From NCBI RefSeq assembly GCF_016901815.1, contig NZ_JACSNR010000005.1, positions 62,001-126,000 on the forward strand: DNA of 64,000 bases, read 5' to 3'. The notes below the pieces were generated by a model. The model searched no databases. It saw nothing but the letters and a program-made list of their open reading frames with translations, and was not told where the DNA came from. The DNA comes from Hydrogenoanaerobacterium saccharovorans. GTDB taxonomy: Bacteria; Bacillota; Clostridia; Oscillospirales; Ruminococcaceae. The translations under genes and the position numbers were made by a program. Shown piece by piece: positions 31,187 to 40,767 of the stretch (position 1 is its first letter; each line of letters begins with the position of its first letter).

Positions 31187-31438
31187 TTACAGACCCAGGA
31201 GTGCCAGACAGATTCCGCCGAACAGGGCTGAGGCGGCACATACCGCAAGCAGGATCGCTATGGGAACTCCGATCAGAATCAGCAGACGCAGTTCCAGAGG
31301 ATGGTCCAGCAGCTGTGCGGTGGGGACTGGGGCGGAGTCGGGGGACTGGCTGTTTTCAGGCAGACGGTCGGGATCACCCCAGGTCGGGTCCACATATACA
31401 TCAGGCTTGGCTGCAAAGCGGAATATGCGTTTCATCAT
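31187..31438 (-). CDS. Small single-span membrane protein
   Basis: A protein of 83 residues on the minus strand, ATG 31438, with AAAGGA seven bases upstream. Residues 1-50 are soluble and polar; the C-terminal third 'LRLLILIGVPIAILLAVCAA' plus following residues forms one long hydrophobic segment. Divergent from kdpD and about 200 nt from it. Family unknown; a link to the Kdp system is only suggested by position. Confidence 0.6.
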   Translation of the reverse strand: MMKRIFRFAAKPDVYVDPTWGDPDRLPENSQSPDSAPVPTAQLLDHPLELRLLILIGVPIAILLAVCAASALFGGICLALLGL

Positions 31439-31541
31439 CAAACATCCTTTCCGATTGATCTGCCATCAGTATAGCCCTTTTTCCAAAAAGAGGGTGTTAG
31501 GGCTTTTCTCCGGAAATTAAGACCTGATAAATGACGGATAA

Positions 31542-31608: not shown

Positions 31609-31640
31609 GGAGTCAGTGTGGAATGAGAGGGGTGACTGAT

Positions 31641-34298
31641 ATGTACGATGCACAAGCACAGCAGAAAGGCAGGCAGGGCCGGCTGAAGATCTTCTTTGGA
31701 TATGCGGCGGGAGTCGGCAAGACATATGCCATGCTGGAAGCTGCCCATCTGGCACAGAAGCAGGGCGTGGATGTGGTGGTGGGATACATCGAGCGGCATA
31801 CCCGTCCGGATACGCTGGCACTGCTGGATGGACTGGAACAGCTGCCCACCCGCACCGTGGAGTACCGGGGCATTGAGCTGCGGGAATTTGATATTGATGC
31901 GGCACTGGAGCGCCGTCCTCAGCTGATTCTGGTGGATGAGCTGGCGCACAGCAATGCTGCCGGCAGCCGGCATCTCAAACGGTATCAGGATGTGGAAGAG
32001 CTGCTCCATGCAGGCATCGATGTCTATACCACAGTCAATGTGCAGCATCTGGAGTCACTGCATGATCTGGTCGCTTCGATTACGCAGATTTCGGTAAACG
32101 AGCGGATTCCCGATTCGGTATTTGACTCAGCAGATCAGGTGGAGCTGGTGGATATTGAACCGGATGACCTGATTGCCCGGCTTCAGTCCGGCAAGGTCTA
32201 TCAGAAGCATCAGGCTTCCCGGGCGCTGGATCACTTCTTTGTCCGGGATAATCTGGCGGCACTGCGGGAGATCGCGCTGCGCCGGACAGCAGACCGGCTG
32301 AGCAGGAATGCCCAGAAGCGGGGCAGTGAAACAGCTGCCAAGGCAGGGGAACATATTCTGGTGTGCCTGTCCAGTTCGCCTTCCAATCCCAAGGTGCTGC
32401 GCACAGCTGCCCGGATGGCAGAGGCGTTCCACAGCGGTTTTACAGCCCTGTTTGTGGAAACGCCCGAAACCCGGGAGCTCACCGGCGAAAATCTCCGGCG
32501 GCTGCGGGATAATCTGCGGCTGGCAGAACAGCTGGGTGCGCAGATTGCCACTGTATATGGCGATGACCCGGCTGCACAGATTGCGGAATATGCCCGGGTC
32601 AGCGGCATCACCAAGATTGTGATCGGCCGCACCAATCACAAGGCATCTCCGCTGCTCAAAAGCCGTACCCTGGTGGATCAGCTCACCCGTCTGGCGGGGG
32701 ATATTGATGTCTATATTATCCCGGATAATCAGCCCATTTACCACAGAAAGTGGATGCACAAGCCCCGTCAAACCCAGCCGGTCCATCTACTGGACATCCT
32801 CAAGGTGCTGCTGATTACCAGTGCGGCATCGCTGATCAATCTGGGGTTTTACAATCTCGGGCTCCGGGAAGCCAATATTATCACCGTCTATCTGCTTGGC
32901 GTGCTGATCGCCGCTGTCTGGACACCCGGTCACTTCTATGGGGCGCTGGCCTCGCTGCTCAGTGTGATCGAATTCAACTTCCTCTTCACAGTGCCGCGGT
33001 TTACCCTGGCAGCCGATGACCCCGATTACCCGGTTACTTTCTTTATTATGCTGCTTGTCAGCATGCTTTCGAGCAGTCTGGCGACCCGTGTGAAAAAACA
33101 GGCCAGGCAGTCGGCACAGAAGGCTTATTATATGGAGCTGCTCATGAACTGCAACCAGAAACTGCAGCAGGGGCGGGACGAATGGGAGATCATCCGGGTT
33201 GCCGCAGAGCAGATCCAGTCGCTGCTGGACCGCCCGGTGCTGTATGCGCTGGCAGTTCCGGATCAGGAGCCGGAATTCCGTGTGACCCCGGCGGAGGAAG
33301 CGGGAATGCTCGCTTCCCTGACCCTGGAAGAAAAGGGCGTGGCGAACTGGGTTATCAGAAACAACAAGCGGGCTGGTGCCGGCACTGATACACTCCGGCA
33401 GGCCCAGAACCTCTATCTGTCGGTGCGCGGAAATCTGGGCGTCATGGGGATTGTGGCGATCCCGGTCCGGAACTGGCCTCCGCTGGAAGTCTTTGAGAAG
33501 AATGTCCTCATCGCCATTCTGAATGAATGCGGTCTGATATTGGAGCGGCGCAAGCTCCAGAAGGAAAAGCAGGCCATTGAACTGGAGACCCGTCAGGAGC
33601 GGCTGCGTTCGAATCTGCTCCGGGCCATCTCCCATGACCTGCGCACCCCGCTCACCAGCATCAGCGGCAATGCAGGCGTGCTGATGGAAAAGAGCATCCA
33701 GCTCAGCGAGGAGAAGAAACAGCAGATCTACGCCTCGATCTATGACGATGCCATGTGGCTGATCAATCTCACCGAAAACCTGCTTTCGATCACCCGGATC
33801 GAGAACGGAACAGTCCATCTGCAGATGGAGGCGGAACTGCTCGACGATGTATTCCATGAGGCGCTGGCCCATATTGATCGCCAGTCGAGTGAGCACCAGA
33901 TCCATATGGAACTGGAAGATGATCTCCTGATGGCCCGGATGGATGCCCGTCTGATTGTGCAGGTGATTATCAATCTCATCAATAATGCTGTAAAATATAC
34001 ACAGAAAGGTTCCAATATCACCCTGTCCGGGCGGCGGGAAGAGAATATGGCAGTGATCTCGGTTGCGGATGACGGCCCGGGTATTTCAGACGAGGCCAAG
34101 GAGCATCTGTTTGATCTGTTCTATACTGCCGAACATGGCAAGGCCGACAGCCGCCGGGGTCTGGGACTGGGACTCAATCTCTGCCGTTCCATAGTCAATG
34201 CCCATGGAGGAAGCATCACGGTTTCGGATAACCGTCCCCAGGGATCGATATTCACCTTTACATTGCCGTTGGAGGAAGTGAAGATTCAACATGTATAA
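31641..34298 (+). CDS. kdpD: Sensor histidine kinase KdpD
   Basis: A protein of 885 residues. ATG 31641 is preferred over 31623 because GAGGGGTG lies 8 nt before it. Residues 14-220 are the KdpD domain with Walker A 'GYAAGVGKTY' (20-29) and 'LILVDELAHSNAAG'; 237-365 a USP domain; 383-477 four transmembrane segments; about 500-640 a GAF domain; H-box 'RAISHDLRTPLTS' near residue 665; then the HATPase domain with 'DDGPGISDEAKEHLFDLFY' and 'GLGLGLNLC'. It senses K+ limitation or osmotic shift and phosphorylates KdpE. Overlaps kdpE by 8 nt. Confidence 0.97.
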   Translation: MYDAQAQQKGRQGRLKIFFGYAAGVGKTYAMLEAAHLAQKQGVDVVVGYIERHTRPDTLALLDGLEQLPTRTVEYRGIELREFDIDAALERRPQLILVDELAHSNAAGSRHLKRYQDVEELLHAGIDVYTTVNVQHLESLHDLVASITQISVNERIPDSVFDSADQVELVDIEPDDLIARLQSGKVYQKHQASRALDHFFVRDNLAALREIALRRTADRLSRNAQKRGSETAAKAGEHILVCLSSSPSNPKVLRTAARMAEAFHSGFTALFVETPETRELTGENLRRLRDNLRLAEQLGAQIATVYGDDPAAQIAEYARVSGITKIVIGRTNHKASPLLKSRTLVDQLTRLAGDIDVYIIPDNQPIYHRKWMHKPRQTQPVHLLDILKVLLITSAASLINLGFYNLGLREANIITVYLLGVLIAAVWTPGHFYGALASLLSVIEFNFLFTVPRFTLAADDPDYPVTFFIMLLVSMLSSSLATRVKKQARQSAQKAYYMELLMNCNQKLQQGRDEWEIIRVAAEQIQSLLDRPVLYALAVPDQEPEFRVTPAEEAGMLASLTLEEKGVANWVIRNNKRAGAGTDTLRQAQNLYLSVRGNLGVMGIVAIPVRNWPPLEVFEKNVLIAILNECGLILERRKLQKEKQAIELETRQERLRSNLLRAISHDLRTPLTSISGNAGVLMEKSIQLSEEKKQQIYASIYDDAMWLINLTENLLSITRIENGTVHLQMEAELLDDVFHEALAHIDRQSSEHQIHMELEDDLLMARMDARLIVQVIINLINNAVKYTQKGSNITLSGRREENMAVISVADDGPGISDEAKEHLFDLFYTAEHGKADSRRGLGLGLNLCRSIVNAHGGSITVSDNRPQGSIFTFTLPLEEVKIQHV

Positions 34299-34989
34299 AC
34301 CGAAAATTCTGGTGGTGGAAGATGATCCTGCCATCACCAATCTGATGCGCACTACCCTGGATACACAGGAATATCAGTACCATACAGCCCGAACCGGGTC
34401 CGGAGCCCTGCTGGATGCCGTCTCCTACAATCCGGATGTCATTATACTGGACCTGGGGCTTCCGGATATGGACGGCGTGGATATTATCCGCAAGATCCGT
34501 GGATGGAGCGAGATGCCGATCATCGTCGTCAGCGCCCGGAGTGAGGATCAGGATAAGGTGGAGGCACTGGATGCCGGTGCCGATGATTATCTGACCAAGC
34601 CATTCAGCATTGATGAGCTGCTGGCCCGCCTGCGTGCTGCCCTCAGACGGAGCCGTGCGGATTATGGCACAGCCCAGCAGAATACGGCAGTCTATCACAA
34701 CGGCAGCCTGACCATTGACTATGCAGCCGGCTGTGTATATCTGGATGGGGAGGAAATCCACCTGACCCCCATCGAGTATAAACTGCTCTGTGTGCTGGCC
34801 CGGAATACCGGCAAAGTGCTCACCCACAACTATATTCTCAAGGAAGTCTGGGGCAGTGCCCTGGCTTCCGATACCCCTTCGCTGCGGGTCTTTATGGCTA
34901 CGCTGCGCAAGAAAATTGAAAAGGACCCCTCTGCTCCCCGCTATATCCAGACCCATATCGGAGTGGGGTATCGCATGATCCGTCAGTAG
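34291..34989 (+). CDS. kdpE: Response regulator KdpE
   Basis: A protein of 232 residues of the OmpR/PhoB class: receiver 'ILVVEDDPAITNLM' with phospho-acceptor Asp54 ('VIILDLGLPDMDG') and 'YLTKPFSIDELLARLRAALR'; winged helix from about 125 with 'LTPIEYKLLCVLARNTGKVL' and the end 'YIQTHIGVGYRM'. It is translated by overlap with kdpD. It would activate kdpFABC and, judging from upstream repeats, its own operon. Confidence 0.96.
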   Translation: MYKPKILVVEDDPAITNLMRTTLDTQEYQYHTARTGSGALLDAVSYNPDVIILDLGLPDMDGVDIIRKIRGWSEMPIIVVSARSEDQDKVEALDAGADDYLTKPFSIDELLARLRAALRRSRADYGTAQQNTAVYHNGSLTIDYAAGCVYLDGEEIHLTPIEYKLLCVLARNTGKVLTHNYILKEVWGSALASDTPSLRVFMATLRKKIEKDPSAPRYIQTHIGVGYRMIRQ

Positions 34990-35009: not shown

Positions 35010-35041
35010 CAGCCGTCCTGTATTTGCAGGGCGGCTTTTTT
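35010..35041 (+). terminator. Terminator between kdpDE and kdpFABC
   Basis: AGCCGTCCTG and CAGGGCGGCT form a stem with one G-U pair, followed by TTTTTT. It separates the regulatory genes from the structural genes, which therefore have their own promoter. Confidence 0.85.
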
Positions 35042-35109
35042 CTATGGATTTTCCTTTATACGGTTTTAACATCCTGCCTGAAACGCTAAGACCGGCTTCA
35101 CGGCAAACC

Positions 35110-35118
35110 TGCTACAAT
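35110..35118 (+). promoter_or_regulatory. kdpFABC promoter (extended -10)
   Basis: TGCTACAAT (TACAAT at 35113-35118). No -35 at 17 nt. The stretch 35050-35090 contains TTTATACGGTTTTAAC, AT-rich and suitable for an activator such as KdpE, but this is inference. Confidence 0.45.
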
Positions 35119-35148
35119 GGTTGCATGGAAATAAAGGAGGAGATCGCT

Positions 35149-35247
35149 ATGATGGATCTGTTAATGGCTGGATTGCTGGCTGGCTGTGCCGGACTGGTAC
35201 TGGTTCTGCTGAACTGGTGTCACCGGCAGGTCAGCCGGACCGAATAG
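35149..35247 (+). CDS. Small membrane peptide of the kdp operon
   Basis: A 32-residue peptide (MMDLLMAGLLAGCAGLVLVL...) with one transmembrane helix followed by 'NWCHRQVSRTE'. ATG 35149 has a strong AAAGGAGGAG. Peptides of this size and form (one helix, then 'xWCxxxV' or similar) occur just upstream of kdpF in several bacteria and are rarely annotated. It may stabilise or tune the KdpFABC complex; no function is established to my knowledge. Confidence 0.7.
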   Translation: MMDLLMAGLLAGCAGLVLVLLNWCHRQVSRTE

Positions 35248-35260
35248 GGAGGAACATGGA

Positions 35261-35338
35261 ATGATCGTACTTGGAATAATTGTACTGCTCCTGGGGGGAT
35301 ACCTGTTTTATGCACTGGTACACCCGGAGAATTTCTGA
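35261..35338 (+). CDS. kdpF: KdpF, small subunit of the K+-transporting ATPase
   Basis: A 25-residue single-helix peptide (MIVLGIIVLLLGGYLFYALV then HPENF). Length, hydrophobicity and the terminal 'L..PE.F' match KdpF, which stabilises KdpA within the complex. ATG 35261 follows AGGGAGGAA. It is too short for most gene callers. Confidence 0.88.
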   Translation: MIVLGIIVLLLGGYLFYALVHPENF

Positions 35339-35359: not shown

Positions 35360-37111
35360 GTGCTTCAGATTGTTCTGACACTGATTCTTTATCTTTTGCC
35401 GCTGATTCCGGTGGGAAACTATGTCTACCGGATCGCGGCAGGGAAGCATACCTTTGCCGATCCGGTTATGGACCGGGTGGATCACGCGATCTATAAGCTC
35501 TGCGGTGTAAACCCCGAGCGCTCCATGGACTGGAAACGCTATGCCGGTACCCTGGTGGGCACCAACCTTGTGATGATCCTGCTGGGATACCTGATCCTGC
35601 GCCTCCAGAGCCTGCTGTTTCTCAATCCCAATGGGATCGGAAGCATGGACCCATCGCTCTCATTCAATACAATCATCAGCTTTATGACCAATACAAACCT
35701 GCAGCATTACGCCGGTGAAACGGGGCTTTCCTATCTCTCGCAGATGCTGGTTATCATCTTTATGATGTTTGTATCGGCAGCCAGCGGCTATGCGGCCTGT
35801 ATCGCCTTTATCCGGGGCCTGGCTGGCAGGACCTCCGATCAGGTGGGCAACTTTTACAGCGATCTGGTGCGTATTATCACCCGGGTGCTGCTGCCCTTCT
35901 CCATTCTCACAGGACTGCTGCTGGTATGGCAGGGCGTTCCCCAGAATTTCTCCGGGAATATCGTGGTGGATACAGTGGAGGGCGCACGCCAGATCATTGC
36001 CACCGGTCCGGTAGCGGCGCTGGAGAGCATCAAGCACCTCGGCACCAATGGCGGCGGCTTCCTGGGAGCCAACTCTTCTACCCCCATCGAAAACCCCACC
36101 ATTCTCACCAATCTCATCGAGCTCTGGTCGATGATGCTCCTGCCCGGCGCCTGCGTTGTCACCTTCGGCAGAATGGTGCATGACCGCCGCACAGAGCCCG
36201 GCACCGGCAGCACAGTTCCCCAGCCGGTGCGCCAGAGCCTGACTGCCCGGTTCTTCGGAAAAGAGGGCCGCAGCATCTTTGCCGCCATGGGGATTCTGTT
36301 CCTCATCGGCCTGGCGGTCTGCTTCTGGGCGGAAAGCCAGGGCAACCCTCTGCTGTCCGATCTGGGACTGAGCCAGTCCATGGGCAGTATGGAGGGCAAG
36401 GAGGTACGGTTCGGCACCGCGCAGTCTTCGCTGTTCACAGCTGTGACAGCTTCCTTTACCACAGGTACCGTCAACAATATGCATGATACCCTCACCCCGC
36501 TGGGCGGCATGGTTCCGCTGCTGCACATGATGCTCAATGTGGTATTCGGCGGCAAGGGCGTGGGTCTGATGAACATGATCATGTATGCCATTCTGGCTGT
36601 GTTCATCTGCGGCCTGATGATCGGACGGACCCCGGAATATCTCGGCAAGAAGGTTGAGGGGCGTGAGATGAAGCTGGTAGCCCTGTGCATCATCATTCAT
36701 CCGCTGCTGATCCTGTCCTTTACCGCACTGGCAGTAACTGTCCCGGCTGGCCTGGCAGGGATCACCAATCCCGGATACCATGGCCTGACCCAGGTGCTGT
36801 ATGAATATGCTTCTTCGGCAGCCAATAACGGTTCCGGCTTTGAGGGCCTGGCTGATAACAGCTTCTTCTGGAATATCACAACAGGCGCTGTCATGTTCCT
36901 GGGGCGGTATCTGCCCATGGTGCTTCAGCTGGCAGTAGCGGGCTCCCTGATGAAGAAGCGGTTTGTCAATGAAACAACCGGCACACTGCATACCGACGGA
37001 ATCGGATTTGCTGTGATCCTGGTATTTGTGGTTTATATCTTTGCGGCGCTGACCTTTTTCCCGGTGCTGGCGCTGGGGCCCATCGCAGAACAGCTTACTC
37101 TGTGGGCCTGA
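35360..37111 (+). CDS. kdpA: KdpA, K+-binding and translocating subunit
   Basis: A protein of 583 residues from GTG 35360 (GGAAGGGGGA upstream). 'FNTIISFMTNTNLQHYAGET' , 'GTNGGGFLGANSSTPIENPT' and 'SSAANNGSGFEGL' carry the selectivity-filter glycines of the K+-channel-like fold; about ten membrane segments. Slightly longer than the E. coli protein (557). It receives K+ from outside and passes it to KdpB. Confidence 0.97.
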   Translation: MLQIVLTLILYLLPLIPVGNYVYRIAAGKHTFADPVMDRVDHAIYKLCGVNPERSMDWKRYAGTLVGTNLVMILLGYLILRLQSLLFLNPNGIGSMDPSLSFNTIISFMTNTNLQHYAGETGLSYLSQMLVIIFMMFVSAASGYAACIAFIRGLAGRTSDQVGNFYSDLVRIITRVLLPFSILTGLLLVWQGVPQNFSGNIVVDTVEGARQIIATGPVAALESIKHLGTNGGGFLGANSSTPIENPTILTNLIELWSMMLLPGACVVTFGRMVHDRRTEPGTGSTVPQPVRQSLTARFFGKEGRSIFAAMGILFLIGLAVCFWAESQGNPLLSDLGLSQSMGSMEGKEVRFGTAQSSLFTAVTASFTTGTVNNMHDTLTPLGGMVPLLHMMLNVVFGGKGVGLMNMIMYAILAVFICGLMIGRTPEYLGKKVEGREMKLVALCIIIHPLLILSFTALAVTVPAGLAGITNPGYHGLTQVLYEYASSAANNGSGFEGLADNSFFWNITTGAVMFLGRYLPMVLQLAVAGSLMKKRFVNETTGTLHTDGIGFAVILVFVVYIFAALTFFPVLALGPIAEQLTLWA

Positions 37112-37126
37112 GGAGGAGTAGTTATC

Positions 37127-39181
37127 ATGAGCAGAAAAAATCAGAAACAGATGACTCCCGGGATGCTCCGGCAGGCAGTCATCGGTTCCTTTATAAAACT
37201 CAATCCGCTGTATATGACGAAAAACCCGGTCATGTTTGTAGTCGAGATCGGCTTCTTCATCACACTGATCCTCTCGGTGTTCCCGGGACTGTTTGGAGAT
37301 ACCGGAGCCAGCCTGCGTACATATAACGCAATCGTTTCGGCGGTTCTGTTTGTCACCGTGCTGTTTGCCAATTTTGCCGAGTCGATTGCCGAAGGACGGG
37401 GCAAGGCGCAGGCAGCCAGTCTGAAAAAGACCCAGAAGGATACCAAAGCCCGCCGCCTGGCAGAGGACGGCAGTGAAACCGTGATTCTCTCCAGTGAGCT
37501 GAAGAAGGACGATATTGTCCTGGTTTCCGCCGGTGAGATTATCCCCGGTGACGGCGAGGTCATTGAGGGCATCGCCTCGGTGGATGAGTCCGCCATCACA
37601 GGTGAATCCGCTCCGGTTGTCCGGGAGTCGGGCGGAGATTTCTGCTCGGTCACCGGCGGCACCACCGTTGTATCCGACTGGCTCAAGATCCGCATCACCT
37701 CCGATCCCGGCAACAGCTTCCTTGACCGCATGATCGCTCTGGTGGAAGGCGCCTCCAGAAAAAAGTCCCCCAATGAGATCGCTCTGAATACCCTGCTGCT
37801 CTCGCTCACCATCATCTTCCTGATTGTGATCGTCACACTGTATCCCATTGCCGCCTATGTGGGCGTACAGCTGCGCATCTCCACCCTGATTGCGCTGACA
37901 GTCTGCCTGATCCCTACCACCATCGGCGGTCTGCTGTCCGCTATCGGCATTGCGGGTATGGACCGTGTTACACGCTTCAATGTCATTGCCATGTCCGGCA
38001 AGGCAGTGGAAGCCTGCGGTGATGTGGACACCATGATTCTGGATAAGACCGGAACCATCACCTTCGGCAATCGTCTGGCGGCGGATTTCATGCCGGTATC
38101 CGGGGCCAGCCGTTCTGAACTGATCCGCTGTGCCGCTCTGACCAGCCTGCGTGACGAAACCCCCGAGGGCAAATCCACCCTGGAACTGGCACGCCGGCTC
38201 GGCGACCAGACCACCGCTCCGGATCAGGTCCAGTTCCATGAGTTTACAGCGCAGACCCGTATGAGCGGTCTGGATCTGCCCGATGGAACCCGGGTGCGCA
38301 AGGGCGCCTCGGAGGCCATTGAACAGTATGTCACAGCCCAGGGAGGCAAGATCCCCTCCGACCTGCATGAGCTGGTCAATCAGGTTGCCGGTATGGGCGG
38401 TACACCGCTGGTTGTCTGTGAAAACGATCAGATTCTGGGTGTCATCTACCTGAAGGATACTGTCAAGCCGGGAATGCAGGAGCGCTTTGAGCGGCTGCGT
38501 GCCATCGGTATCAAGACAATCATGTGCACCGGTGATAATCCGCTTACCGCTGCGACCATTGCCCGGGAAGCCGGCGTGGATGGCTTTGTGGCGGAATGCA
38601 AGCCTGAGGATAAGATCGCTGTCATCAAGAAGGAACAGGCTGAGGGCAAGATCGTTGCCATGACCGGTGACGGCACCAACGACGCTCCGGCACTGGCCCA
38701 GGCCAATGTGGGCCTGGCAATGAACAGCGGCACCACCGCAGCCAAGGAAGCTGCCAATATGGTGGATCTGGATTCCGACCCCACCAAGATCCTGGAAGTG
38801 GTGGAGATCGGCAAGCAGCTGCTCATCACACGCGGCAGCCTGACCACCTTCTCCATTGCCAATGATATTGCCAAGTACTTTGCCATTATCCCGGCGATCT
38901 TCATGGCGGCAATCCCCCAGCTGGGAGTGCTGAATATCATGGGACTGTCCTCTCCGGACAGCGCAGTGCTTTCGGCTCTGGTGTTCAATGCCATTATCAT
39001 TCCCTGCCTGATCCCGCTGGCAATGAAGGGCGTCAAATACCGCCCCATGTCCTCGGGACGGCTGCTGGCCCGGAATATGCTCATCTATGGTCTGGGCGGC
39101 GTGATCACTCCCTTTGTGGGAATCAAACTCATCGATACCCTGCTTCACCCGGTGCTTCTTGCCCTGGGCCTGGGGCTGTAA
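37127..39181 (+). CDS. kdpB: KdpB, catalytic P-type ATPase subunit
   Basis: A protein of 684 residues. The phosphorylated Asp is Asp306 in '[12 protein letters not shown]'; the TGES actuator motif is '[13 protein letters not shown]'; hinge motif '[20 protein letters not shown]' is complete; '[15 protein letters not shown]' is the KdpB stretch with the Ser that is phosphorylated for inhibition in E. coli (within TGES: Ser of 'TGES'). About seven membrane segments. RBS GAGGAG 11 nt before ATG 37127. Confidence 0.97.
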
Positions 39182-39199: not shown

Positions 39200-39853
39200 A
39201 TGCGTGATACAGTAAGAGATTTTCTCAGATCGGCCCGGCAGTCGGTATCAGTTGCCCTGGTACTGATGCTGATCTGTGGTTTTGCTTATCCCTGCCTGCT
39301 TACAGGGCTGTCGGGGGTGCTGTTCCCCTGGCAGGCAAATGGCAGCCTGCTCACAGTCAACGGTCAGACCCTCGGCTCTGAACATGTGGGGCAGGAGTTT
39401 GTCAGCGACTGCTATCTCTGGAGCCGTCCCTCGGCTTATCACTACAATGTCTATACAGAAGATGAGAATGGCAGCCGGTTCTATCTGGACGGCAGTGAAT
39501 TTGCCGGTCTTGCTTCCGGCTCCGAGAACTATGCGCCCACCAATCCGGCTCTGACCGAGCGGGTGGAGCAGGATCTCGCCGATTTCCTGGAGAAGAACCC
39601 GACTGTGAAGGCAGAGAATATTCCCACCGATCTGCTGACCGCTTCCGGTTCCGGACTGGACCCGCATATCTCCCCGGCTGCCGCTGAGGTACAGGTGCCC
39701 CGGATTGCAGCGGCTTCCGGCCTGAGTGAGGAAAAGGTGCGGGAGATCATCGGAAACAACACCGAAGGCAAGCTCCTGGGGATCTTTGGCGAGGAGACGG
39801 TCAATGTGCTTCGGGTCAATCTGGAGCTGGCGCAGGAAATGGGCGTTTGCTGA
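39200..39853 (+). CDS. kdpC: KdpC subunit
   Basis: A protein of 217 residues with one N-terminal membrane segment ('SVSVALVLMLICGFAYPCLL') and an extracellular domain. 'QEFVSDCYLWSRPSAYHYNV' , 'SGLDPHISPAAAEVQVPRIA' and 'VNVLRVNLELAQ' are standard KdpC motifs. It acts as the accessory subunit raising K+ affinity. A short insertion of about 15 residues follows 'HYNV' (EDENGSRFYLDG). Confidence 0.95.
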   Translation: MRDTVRDFLRSARQSVSVALVLMLICGFAYPCLLTGLSGVLFPWQANGSLLTVNGQTLGSEHVGQEFVSDCYLWSRPSAYHYNVYTEDENGSRFYLDGSEFAGLASGSENYAPTNPALTERVEQDLADFLEKNPTVKAENIPTDLLTASGSGLDPHISPAAAEVQVPRIAAASGLSEEKVREIIGNNTEGKLLGIFGEETVNVLRVNLELAQEMGVC

Positions 39854-39876: not shown

Positions 39877-40767
39877 ATGAAAGAGCTGCATGTCTATCAG
39901 CCTGCAAACTGCATCCAACTGGATAGTCCGGCGGTGAACCCCACGGTGCGCATGCTGCTGACCGTGCTGTATGAGCTGCAGCACTGGCTGAAGGCAGCTC
40001 CCATCGTCAGCCGGGATACGGAGAGTGGAAGCACAGTCTGCCTGCTTTTCCGGGACTGCGCCTGCACAGGGGAGGACCTCTGCCAGATGTTCGGCAGCGC
40101 CCTGGCAGATCTCTCGCCGCGCTGGAAGGCGGATCTGTATGGGACAGAGCCCTGTTCTCAGGAAACTGTCTGGTACCGGTTTGCCCGGGAAGAGGCACAG
40201 TGCTGGATAAGGGAATCGACCCTGTCCGGACGGCAGGCTGAAACGATCCAGTCGCTTTGCCTGTGCCTGACCTGCGGCAGTTCCCATGAAGCGGAGGCAG
40301 TGCAGCAGCTGCTGCAGGCCATGGACTGGAAACGGGGACTGGCGGTAGTAGAATGGAAATGCGGGGACAGTCTGGGCGGGGAGAGCGGCAGGGAACTGCC
40401 GGAACCGGGACTGTACTGTTATGAGAGCGTTTTCAAATGCCCCGAAGCCGAAGCATGTCTGGCGGCGCTGAGCCTGGAACAGAAGGTGCGTCTGTGGATG
40501 GCGTTTTTGGCAGAGGACCGGGAGTGCGTGGAATTCCAGTGGCTGTATGATGCCATTGCCCGCCGGATTCTGGAAAACCGGATCGAATGGGAGCTGTCCC
40601 TGTACGAAGCGATGAAGCGGCTGGGATATTCCATTCAGGCGGATCAGCGGAGGTTCATGCTCTGTGATGGTCAGGGACGCCGGCGCTATTTCGGTGCGGA
40701 CAGTGTCAGGAATTCGGAACGGGCCCTGATGAAAATCCTGTTCCCGCTGAATTTGCAGGAACTCTAA
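39877..40767 (+). CDS. Uncharacterised protein following kdpC
   Basis: A protein of 296 residues, 23 nt after kdpC with AAAGGAGAG upstream and no terminator between, so co-transcribed. It is cytosolic, cysteine-rich ('CLCLTCGSSHEAEAVQQLLQ', 'CYESVFKCPEAEACLA'), with a helical C-terminus ('LYEAMKRLGYSIQADQRRFM'). I recognise no family. Possible roles in K+ homeostasis follow only from context. Confidence 0.7.
   Translation: MKELHVYQPANCIQLDSPAVNPTVRMLLTVLYELQHWLKAAPIVSRDTESGSTVCLLFRDCACTGEDLCQMFGSALADLSPRWKADLYGTEPCSQETVWYRFAREEAQCWIRESTLSGRQAETIQSLCLCLTCGSSHEAEAVQQLLQAMDWKRGLAVVEWKCGDSLGGESGRELPEPGLYCYESVFKCPEAEACLAALSLEQKVRLWMAFLAEDRECVEFQWLYDAIARRILENRIEWELSLYEAMKRLGYSIQADQRRFMLCDGQGRRRYFGADSVRNSERALMKILFPLNLQEL

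Follow-up and report, generated by a model that had tools for sequence, protein, structure and literature searches.

Does the KdpFABC pump, a textbook complex whose structure is known from E. coli, possess a further small component in other bacteria? The question is raised by a 32-aa open reading frame (ORF) on the forward strand of the window, i.e., the whole 64,000-nt stretch of Hydrogenoanaerobacterium saccharovorans DNA analysed here (ATG at 35149, TAG at 35245-35247; alternative start at 35152; product MMDLLMAGLLAGCAGLVLVLLNWCHRQVSRTE). With fewer than 45 codons, such a gene is easily overlooked, and a further helix conserved across many other bacteria would alter the picture of "the" Kdp complex. 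A preliminary description, made from the letters of the window, had placed this ORF between kdpE and kdpF, credited it with a strong ribosome-binding site (RBS) and a clean transmembrane peptide, and saw a hint of a sixth component of the pump in similar unannotated peptides that occupy this place in other kdp operons.

The position and the basic features of the gene were confirmed. Upstream on the same strand lie the genes for the sensor kinase KdpD (31623..34298) and the response regulator KdpE (34291..34989), for each of which the namesake model is the best, with a score under the curated cut-off. Downstream, after a gap of 13 nt, follow kdpF (35261..35338; 25 aa, C-terminus HPENF, above the TIGR02115 and PF09604 cut-offs), kdpA (35360..37111), kdpB (37127..39181), which served as query, and kdpC (39200..39853), all on the forward strand. 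The RBS of the peptide gene, AAGGAGGAG (35134..35142), is separated from the ATG by 6 nt, and that of kdpF, GGGAGG (35247..35252), abuts the peptide stop codon. AlphaFold, given a 26-sequence alignment, returned a single helix spanning residues 2-30 (mean pLDDT 94).

Between kdpE and the ORF, a terminator-like hairpin (35011..35036; 11-pair stem, then a T run) lies 3' of kdpE and 5' of the putative peptide-kdpFABC transcript. It is followed by a block common to close relatives (35053..35118), which we read as a promoter, holding a T-rich, KdpE-operator-like direct repeat (about 35053-35070), AAACGCTAAGACC (35081-35093), TTCAC (35097-35101), and an extended -10 element, TGcTACAAT (35110-35118). 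In a comparison of 14 upstream regions, this block was clear in loci L009, L011, L013, L017, L019, and L034, and weaker or absent in others (e.g., L008 and L032); a consensus promoter scan left the extended -10-like box unflagged and marked a site at 35126-35153 instead. Since the -10-like box ends the block, the peptide ORF would precede all others on the kdp transcript, behind a leader of roughly 25 nt. The kdpF frame of L034 is intact, with ATA at the position of its relatives' ATG start.

Membrane ORFs at this place are the rule in the loci surveyed. One of 24-45 aa, counted if its end fell between -140 and +14 nt of kdpF, precedes kdpF in 109 of 131 kdp loci, versus 5.8% in shuffled upstream DNA (20 dinucleotide shuffles of the upstream stretch per locus), with at least two loci in the 131 double-counted (L018/L079 and L021/L076) and three of the 109 (L002, L042, and L058) having membrane ORFs unlike the family that were removed for profile work. 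The kdpA loci came from genomes of the window's family, order, and phylum, from an 80-genome set, and from plasmids; two spurious KdpA matches (L044 and L045) were excluded ahead of the resulting set of 152, of which the 131 are those with a confident kdpF score and at least 250 nt upstream. Starts of the form M-x-D were favoured, which alters the chosen start and not the ORF count. In 20 loci the peptide ORF overlaps kdpF by 1-4 nt. Further small membrane ORFs were seen at some loci: one of 42-44 aa (M[AQ][ED]YMLLR...) lies 5' of the peptide in L006, L018, L031, and L079, ending 117-120 nt before kdpF, and the Bacteroidota loci L106, L128, and L152 have additional ones close to kdpF besides the peptide.

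The peptide ORF codes for protein and is under purifying selection. In 40 distinct sequences, mostly from Bacillota, dN/dS was 0.18 over the 47 pairs whose nucleotide identity reached 68% or more, and it was 0.20 over 26 pairs from the rhizobia Rhizobium, Sinorhizobium, and Mesorhizobium (10 distinct sequences), values for which pN is somewhat lowered because both sets were picked by motif (44 mostly Bacillota loci, 40 of them distinct; 10 of 14 rhizobial loci passing). Entropy in the Bacillota-dominated set peaks at third codon positions, a difference reached in none of 10,000 permutations, and stops interrupt 0/40, 36/40, and 17/40 of its sequences in frames 0, 1, and 2, respectively, the corresponding rhizobial counts being 0/10, 5/10, and 1/10. 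The window peptide itself differs from the others at 45-94% of synonymous sites, too distant for a dN/dS ratio. The synonymous-level analysis, which the preliminary description had named as the point on which its proposal could fail, thus does not refute it.

That similar peptides occupy this place in other kdp operons, as the preliminary description had supposed, is confirmed, and the family reaches well beyond close relatives. A Clostridia-like profile (26 sequences) matched the Bacilli peptides at 98.1% probability, those of the Alphaproteobacteria at 93.9%, those of a mixed group (Chloroflexota, Acidobacteriota, Myxococcota, and others) at 93.3%, and those of the Bacteroidota at 80.7%, versus at most 2.0% for reversed profiles and 4.3% for KdpF profiles. 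These comparisons exclude L064, which sits in two groups in an earlier all-group comparison where one reversed control reached 8.2%. Group names were assigned by likeness, such that "Bacilli" includes L070 and L094 (Caldanaerobacter) and the Clostridia-like group includes L083 (Holdemania). Compared directly, the Bacteroidota and Alphaproteobacteria profiles gave 14.2%, i.e., no match. Given such weak direct matches and the scores of the Bacteroidota peptides against KdpF groups (see below), they are counted as members for their position, for their matches to the Clostridia, Bacilli, and mixed groups, and for the C-terminal motif F-[DE]-[KRNTQ]-[IM]. Other conserved residues are a D near the N-terminus, a W-C close to the C-terminal end of Clostridia-like peptides, and, for many Alphaproteobacteria peptides, C-[DE]-R-[LI]. 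A packed helix is expected to show periodic conservation; helical periodicity was found in one group (p 0.02, uncorrected) and in none of three others.

Among the best 80 of 587 confirmed matches, a choice of genomes that skews the figure towards the query, 75 have the peptide: 31/33 Bacillota, 20/20 Pseudomonadota, 18/20 Bacteroidota, and one each from Chloroflexota, Acidobacteriota, Myxococcota, Vulcanimicrobiota, Melainabacteria, and an unplaced record; the one cyanobacterium in this set does not. Candidate peptides at the same place, judged by eye, were also found on plasmids of Deinococcus, Caballeronia, Rhodococcus, and Arthrobacter. No peptide ORF was seen at the kdp loci of E. coli K-12, Pluralibacter, Lactiplantibacillus, Trichormus, or Halobacterium.

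Within the window's family and order, strong matches to the peptide profile occur only beside kdp. When whole genomes were searched with a profile built from 26 peptides (A2), strong matches numbered 10 for the family (148 genomes; E 8e-15 or better) and 7 for the order (295 genomes; E 4e-14 or better). They fall in 15 distinct genomes, each match lying just upstream of that genome's kdpA. Except in G470, these are the profile's own sequences or identical copies, so the informative part is the absence of strong matches elsewhere. Weaker matches fell at 21 places in family genomes without a KdpA match (E 0.0016-0.1), 18 of them inside frames of more than 200 aa and 3 in short frames; a genome of the same genus (G002), likewise without a kdpA match, has such a weak match alone (E 0.0095, in a 391-aa frame).

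Presence of the peptide also follows the lineage of the pump. On a KdpA tree of 114 rows with the peptide, 45 without, and 1 unscored (plasmid and hand-read loci added; near-copies L014, L021, L025, L075, L076, and L079 excluded), the peptide label changes 11 times, versus a shuffled mean of 39. Where KdpF ends in P-[EDT]-x-[FY], the peptide is present in 109 of 114 loci, versus 4 of 37 with other tails, a count that omits 8 rows with unclassified KdpF, includes 25 tails entered by hand, and reflects few lineage changes, with only 2-4 phylogenetically independent pairs and hence a powerless test. Lineages with RGDK- or AEEL-type KdpF tails mostly lack the peptide, as do the two Enterobacteriaceae examined.

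The loci with RGDK/GE- or AEEL-type tails and no peptide (L002-L005, L023, L026-L028, L030, L035, L036, L038, L039, and L046-L063 except L051 and L054) represent other Kdp lineages within the window's family, order, and phylum. Five loci have the usual type of KdpF tail and no peptide (L040, L078, L131, L143, and L163), in the first four of which an intact peptide gene is absent before the usual kdpF; some pumps therefore do without it. The genome of L040 (G442; 87% complete) is absent from the order-level profile matches, if it was in that draw. In L143, a Bacteroidota-type DFFEKI tail stands before kdpF with the frame broken upstream, as would result from decay of the peptide gene or from a sequencing error.

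How, then, is the gene best explained? Short hydrophobic ORFs are readily found by eye, and a chance or nonfunctional ORF is the simplest alternative; the 109 of 131 loci versus 5.8%, the dN/dS values of 0.18 and 0.20, the profile matches across phyla, and the restriction of strong matches to kdp refute it, and its probability is negligible. A tandem duplicate of KdpF would account for adjacent genes of similar size, each encoding a single helix, and KdpF (PF09604, TIGR02115) is indeed a single-helix peptide of 25-30 aa encoded next door in the same operon. Two scores lean the same way: Bacteroidota peptides reach 25.7% and 37.2% against two KdpF groups, and one Alphaproteobacterial member, among nine diverse family members tested against family models, aligns over residues 2-14 with a KdpF model at 15.8 bits (cut-off 57). 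However, a search of Pfam and NCBIfam, KdpF models included, gave no family match for the window peptide, whereas the neighbouring KdpF scores 35.2 (cut-off 21.2) on PF09604 and 34.1 (26.85) on TIGR02115; the remaining 23 of 25 peptide-KdpF profile comparisons stay below 6%, versus 97-99% among KdpF groups themselves; and the conserved residues of KdpF are not those of the peptide. Duplication is thus disfavoured by the profiles, and we give it very little credence. The nine members yielded only sub-cut-off matches to any model, including one at 15.5 bits on the MetS-type NF033493 (cut-off 25).

Two further alternatives concern regulation. The ORF could be a leader whose translation, rather than its product, controls kdpF through translational coupling or attenuation: it is the first ORF ahead of kdpF, the kdpF RBS abuts its stop codon, the two frames overlap in the 20 loci mentioned above, and the window RNA folds better than its shuffles (z -2.5; equalled by 2 of 200). 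Against this, conservation acts on amino acids and not on codons, with matches across phyla, an attenuator would not fit into the 13-nt gap, and the fold is not shared by relatives, the consensus over 12 sequences amounting to -0.7 kcal/mol with no conserved structure or terminator before kdpF; a leader role is accordingly improbable, if a little less so than duplication. A search of Rfam returned one chance lncRNA match, below the gathering score. Alternatively, the peptide may regulate KdpD signalling or pump turnover rather than form a stable pump part. MgrB, which acts on PhoQ, and MgtR, which acts with FtsH, are models for such regulators, small single-helix peptides often work in this way, and the gene heads the pump genes downstream of kdpE. 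For KdpD as the partner, this was weighed in 20 fetched regions around peptide-positive pumps (about 8 kb either side of the pump) and 20 others, comprising 17 without the peptide, two with it (L183 and L185), and one unscored (L177). The KdpD kinase part and KdpE both occur in 15 of the 20 peptide-positive regions, whereas neither occurs in the other five: L201 has no KdpD or KdpE match, and L206-L209, from the window's phylum, have the KdpD N-terminal part only. Conversely, most regions without the peptide have both regulators (kinase part in 14/17, with at least 480 aa matched; KdpE in 13/17). As the peptide occurs without the kinase part and vice versa, it does not depend on the KdpD kinase; the gene is linked to the pump genes and independent of the regulator. 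L201 and L206-L209 in particular weaken the KdpD-partner model. These counts weigh against KdpD as partner, not against a role in pump turnover, and we consider a regulatory peptide of either kind unlikely overall, though clearly ahead of the other alternatives.

The reading that we prefer, at a probability of roughly 60%, makes the peptide a small accessory protein of KdpFABC with a single helix, serving either as a subunit or as a factor dedicated to the assembly or stability of the complex. With relatives before kdpF in many bacteria and none in E. coli, the peptide is probably a small part of the Kdp pump that has been missed. The pump component suggested by the preliminary description is the reading that kdp linkage, pump lineage, and independence from the regulator best support, and its proposal would thus hold in part; its "sixth" was a miscount, as the pump consists of KdpF, A, B, and C and the peptide would be the fifth. 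As an accessory pump protein, the peptide would be expressed from the kdp promoter in step with the pump, with its stop codon likely coupled to kdpF translation. It would insert as one helix, perhaps with the acidic N-terminus outside and the Cys/basic C-terminus inside, although this orientation is a guess. The helix would then pack on the membrane domain of KdpFABC, perhaps next to KdpF, such that physical association with the complex would allow the peptide to stabilise it or tune its activity as KdpF does. KdpF itself is said to stabilise the complex (PMC5401905, citing Gassel 1999).

Tiny helices in large membrane complexes have precedents. CydX, AcrZ, and MetS are small single-helix transporter subunits or modulators, and FXYD, sarcolipin, and phospholamban sit on other P-type ATPases; the peptide would work like them and belongs to none of them by sequence. 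Somewhat short of even odds, we entertain the broader reading that most bacterial Kdp pumps are five-subunit Z-F-A-B-C complexes, the extra helix having been present early and later lost in Enterobacteriaceae and some other lineages. If so, the E. coli KdpFABC structures depict a reduced pump. A PDB search turned up three distinct KdpA sequences, all full-length matches to E. coli KdpA at about 1200 bits, an attribution made by score and with one alignment seen, which was identical; the peptide profile had no match in the PDB. Outside enterobacteria, the peptide would be a ready partner for studies of pump stability or regulation.

Part of this family probably already has a name. Clostridium acetobutylicum produces a single kdpZYABCXDE transcript under K+ limitation, according to PMC5401905 (after Treuner-Lange 1997), and its kdpZ stands ahead of kdpY (presumably kdpF) and kdpA, the same place as that of the window peptide. 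By operon position, kdpZ is thus probably a member of the peptide family, and a Clostridium sp. locus (L084), as a genus-level stand-in, has a family member there. Treuner-Lange and colleagues are said to have described, in 1997, the first two genes, orfZ and orfY, as encoding putative hydrophobic peptides, orfZ reportedly being a small hydrophobic ORF without known relatives. Among the literature matches listed, in which subscription journals are mostly uncovered and articles appear in part, a widespread peptide family before kdpF is undescribed. A gene at this place had thus been named before, and what is new is the breadth of the family, the selection on it, its kdp-specific linkage, and its separation from KdpF and KdpDE. 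"Unannotated", as the preliminary description had it, holds for plasmids, where 13 of 14 annotated records with the peptide give it no feature of its own (a rough guide, since PLSDB lists genes incompletely and even kdpF or kdpA is missing from its table for some of these records), and does not hold for C. acetobutylicum, where PMC5401905 names kdpZ at this place. An Arthrobacter plasmid record lists a 66-aa hypothetical protein that shares the peptide's stop. For annotators, the family offers a position-plus-profile rule for this gene.

Reported 5' untranslated regions (UTRs) may bear on the same point. kdpF is reported to be preceded by a 5' UTR of about 100 nt in Caulobacter (PMC8552747), of 120 nt in M. 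smegmatis (PMC5401905), and of 370 nt with a c-di-AMP riboswitch in B. thuringiensis (PMC6488665). Each of the three may in part be the peptide gene.

Two other genes flank the cluster in the window. Directly 3' of kdpC lies a 296-aa ORF (39877-40764, forward strand) with no Pfam or NCBIfam match. On the reverse strand, divergent from kdpD, an 84-aa small membrane protein (31187-31441) has a core resembling H-[PKQ]...[IV]-G-x-P; judged by sequence likeness, it is a second small membrane protein family close to kdp clusters, with relatives in 14 other kdp loci (E 3e-13 or better, one iteration), e.g., L020, L026, L030, L035, L190, and L203.
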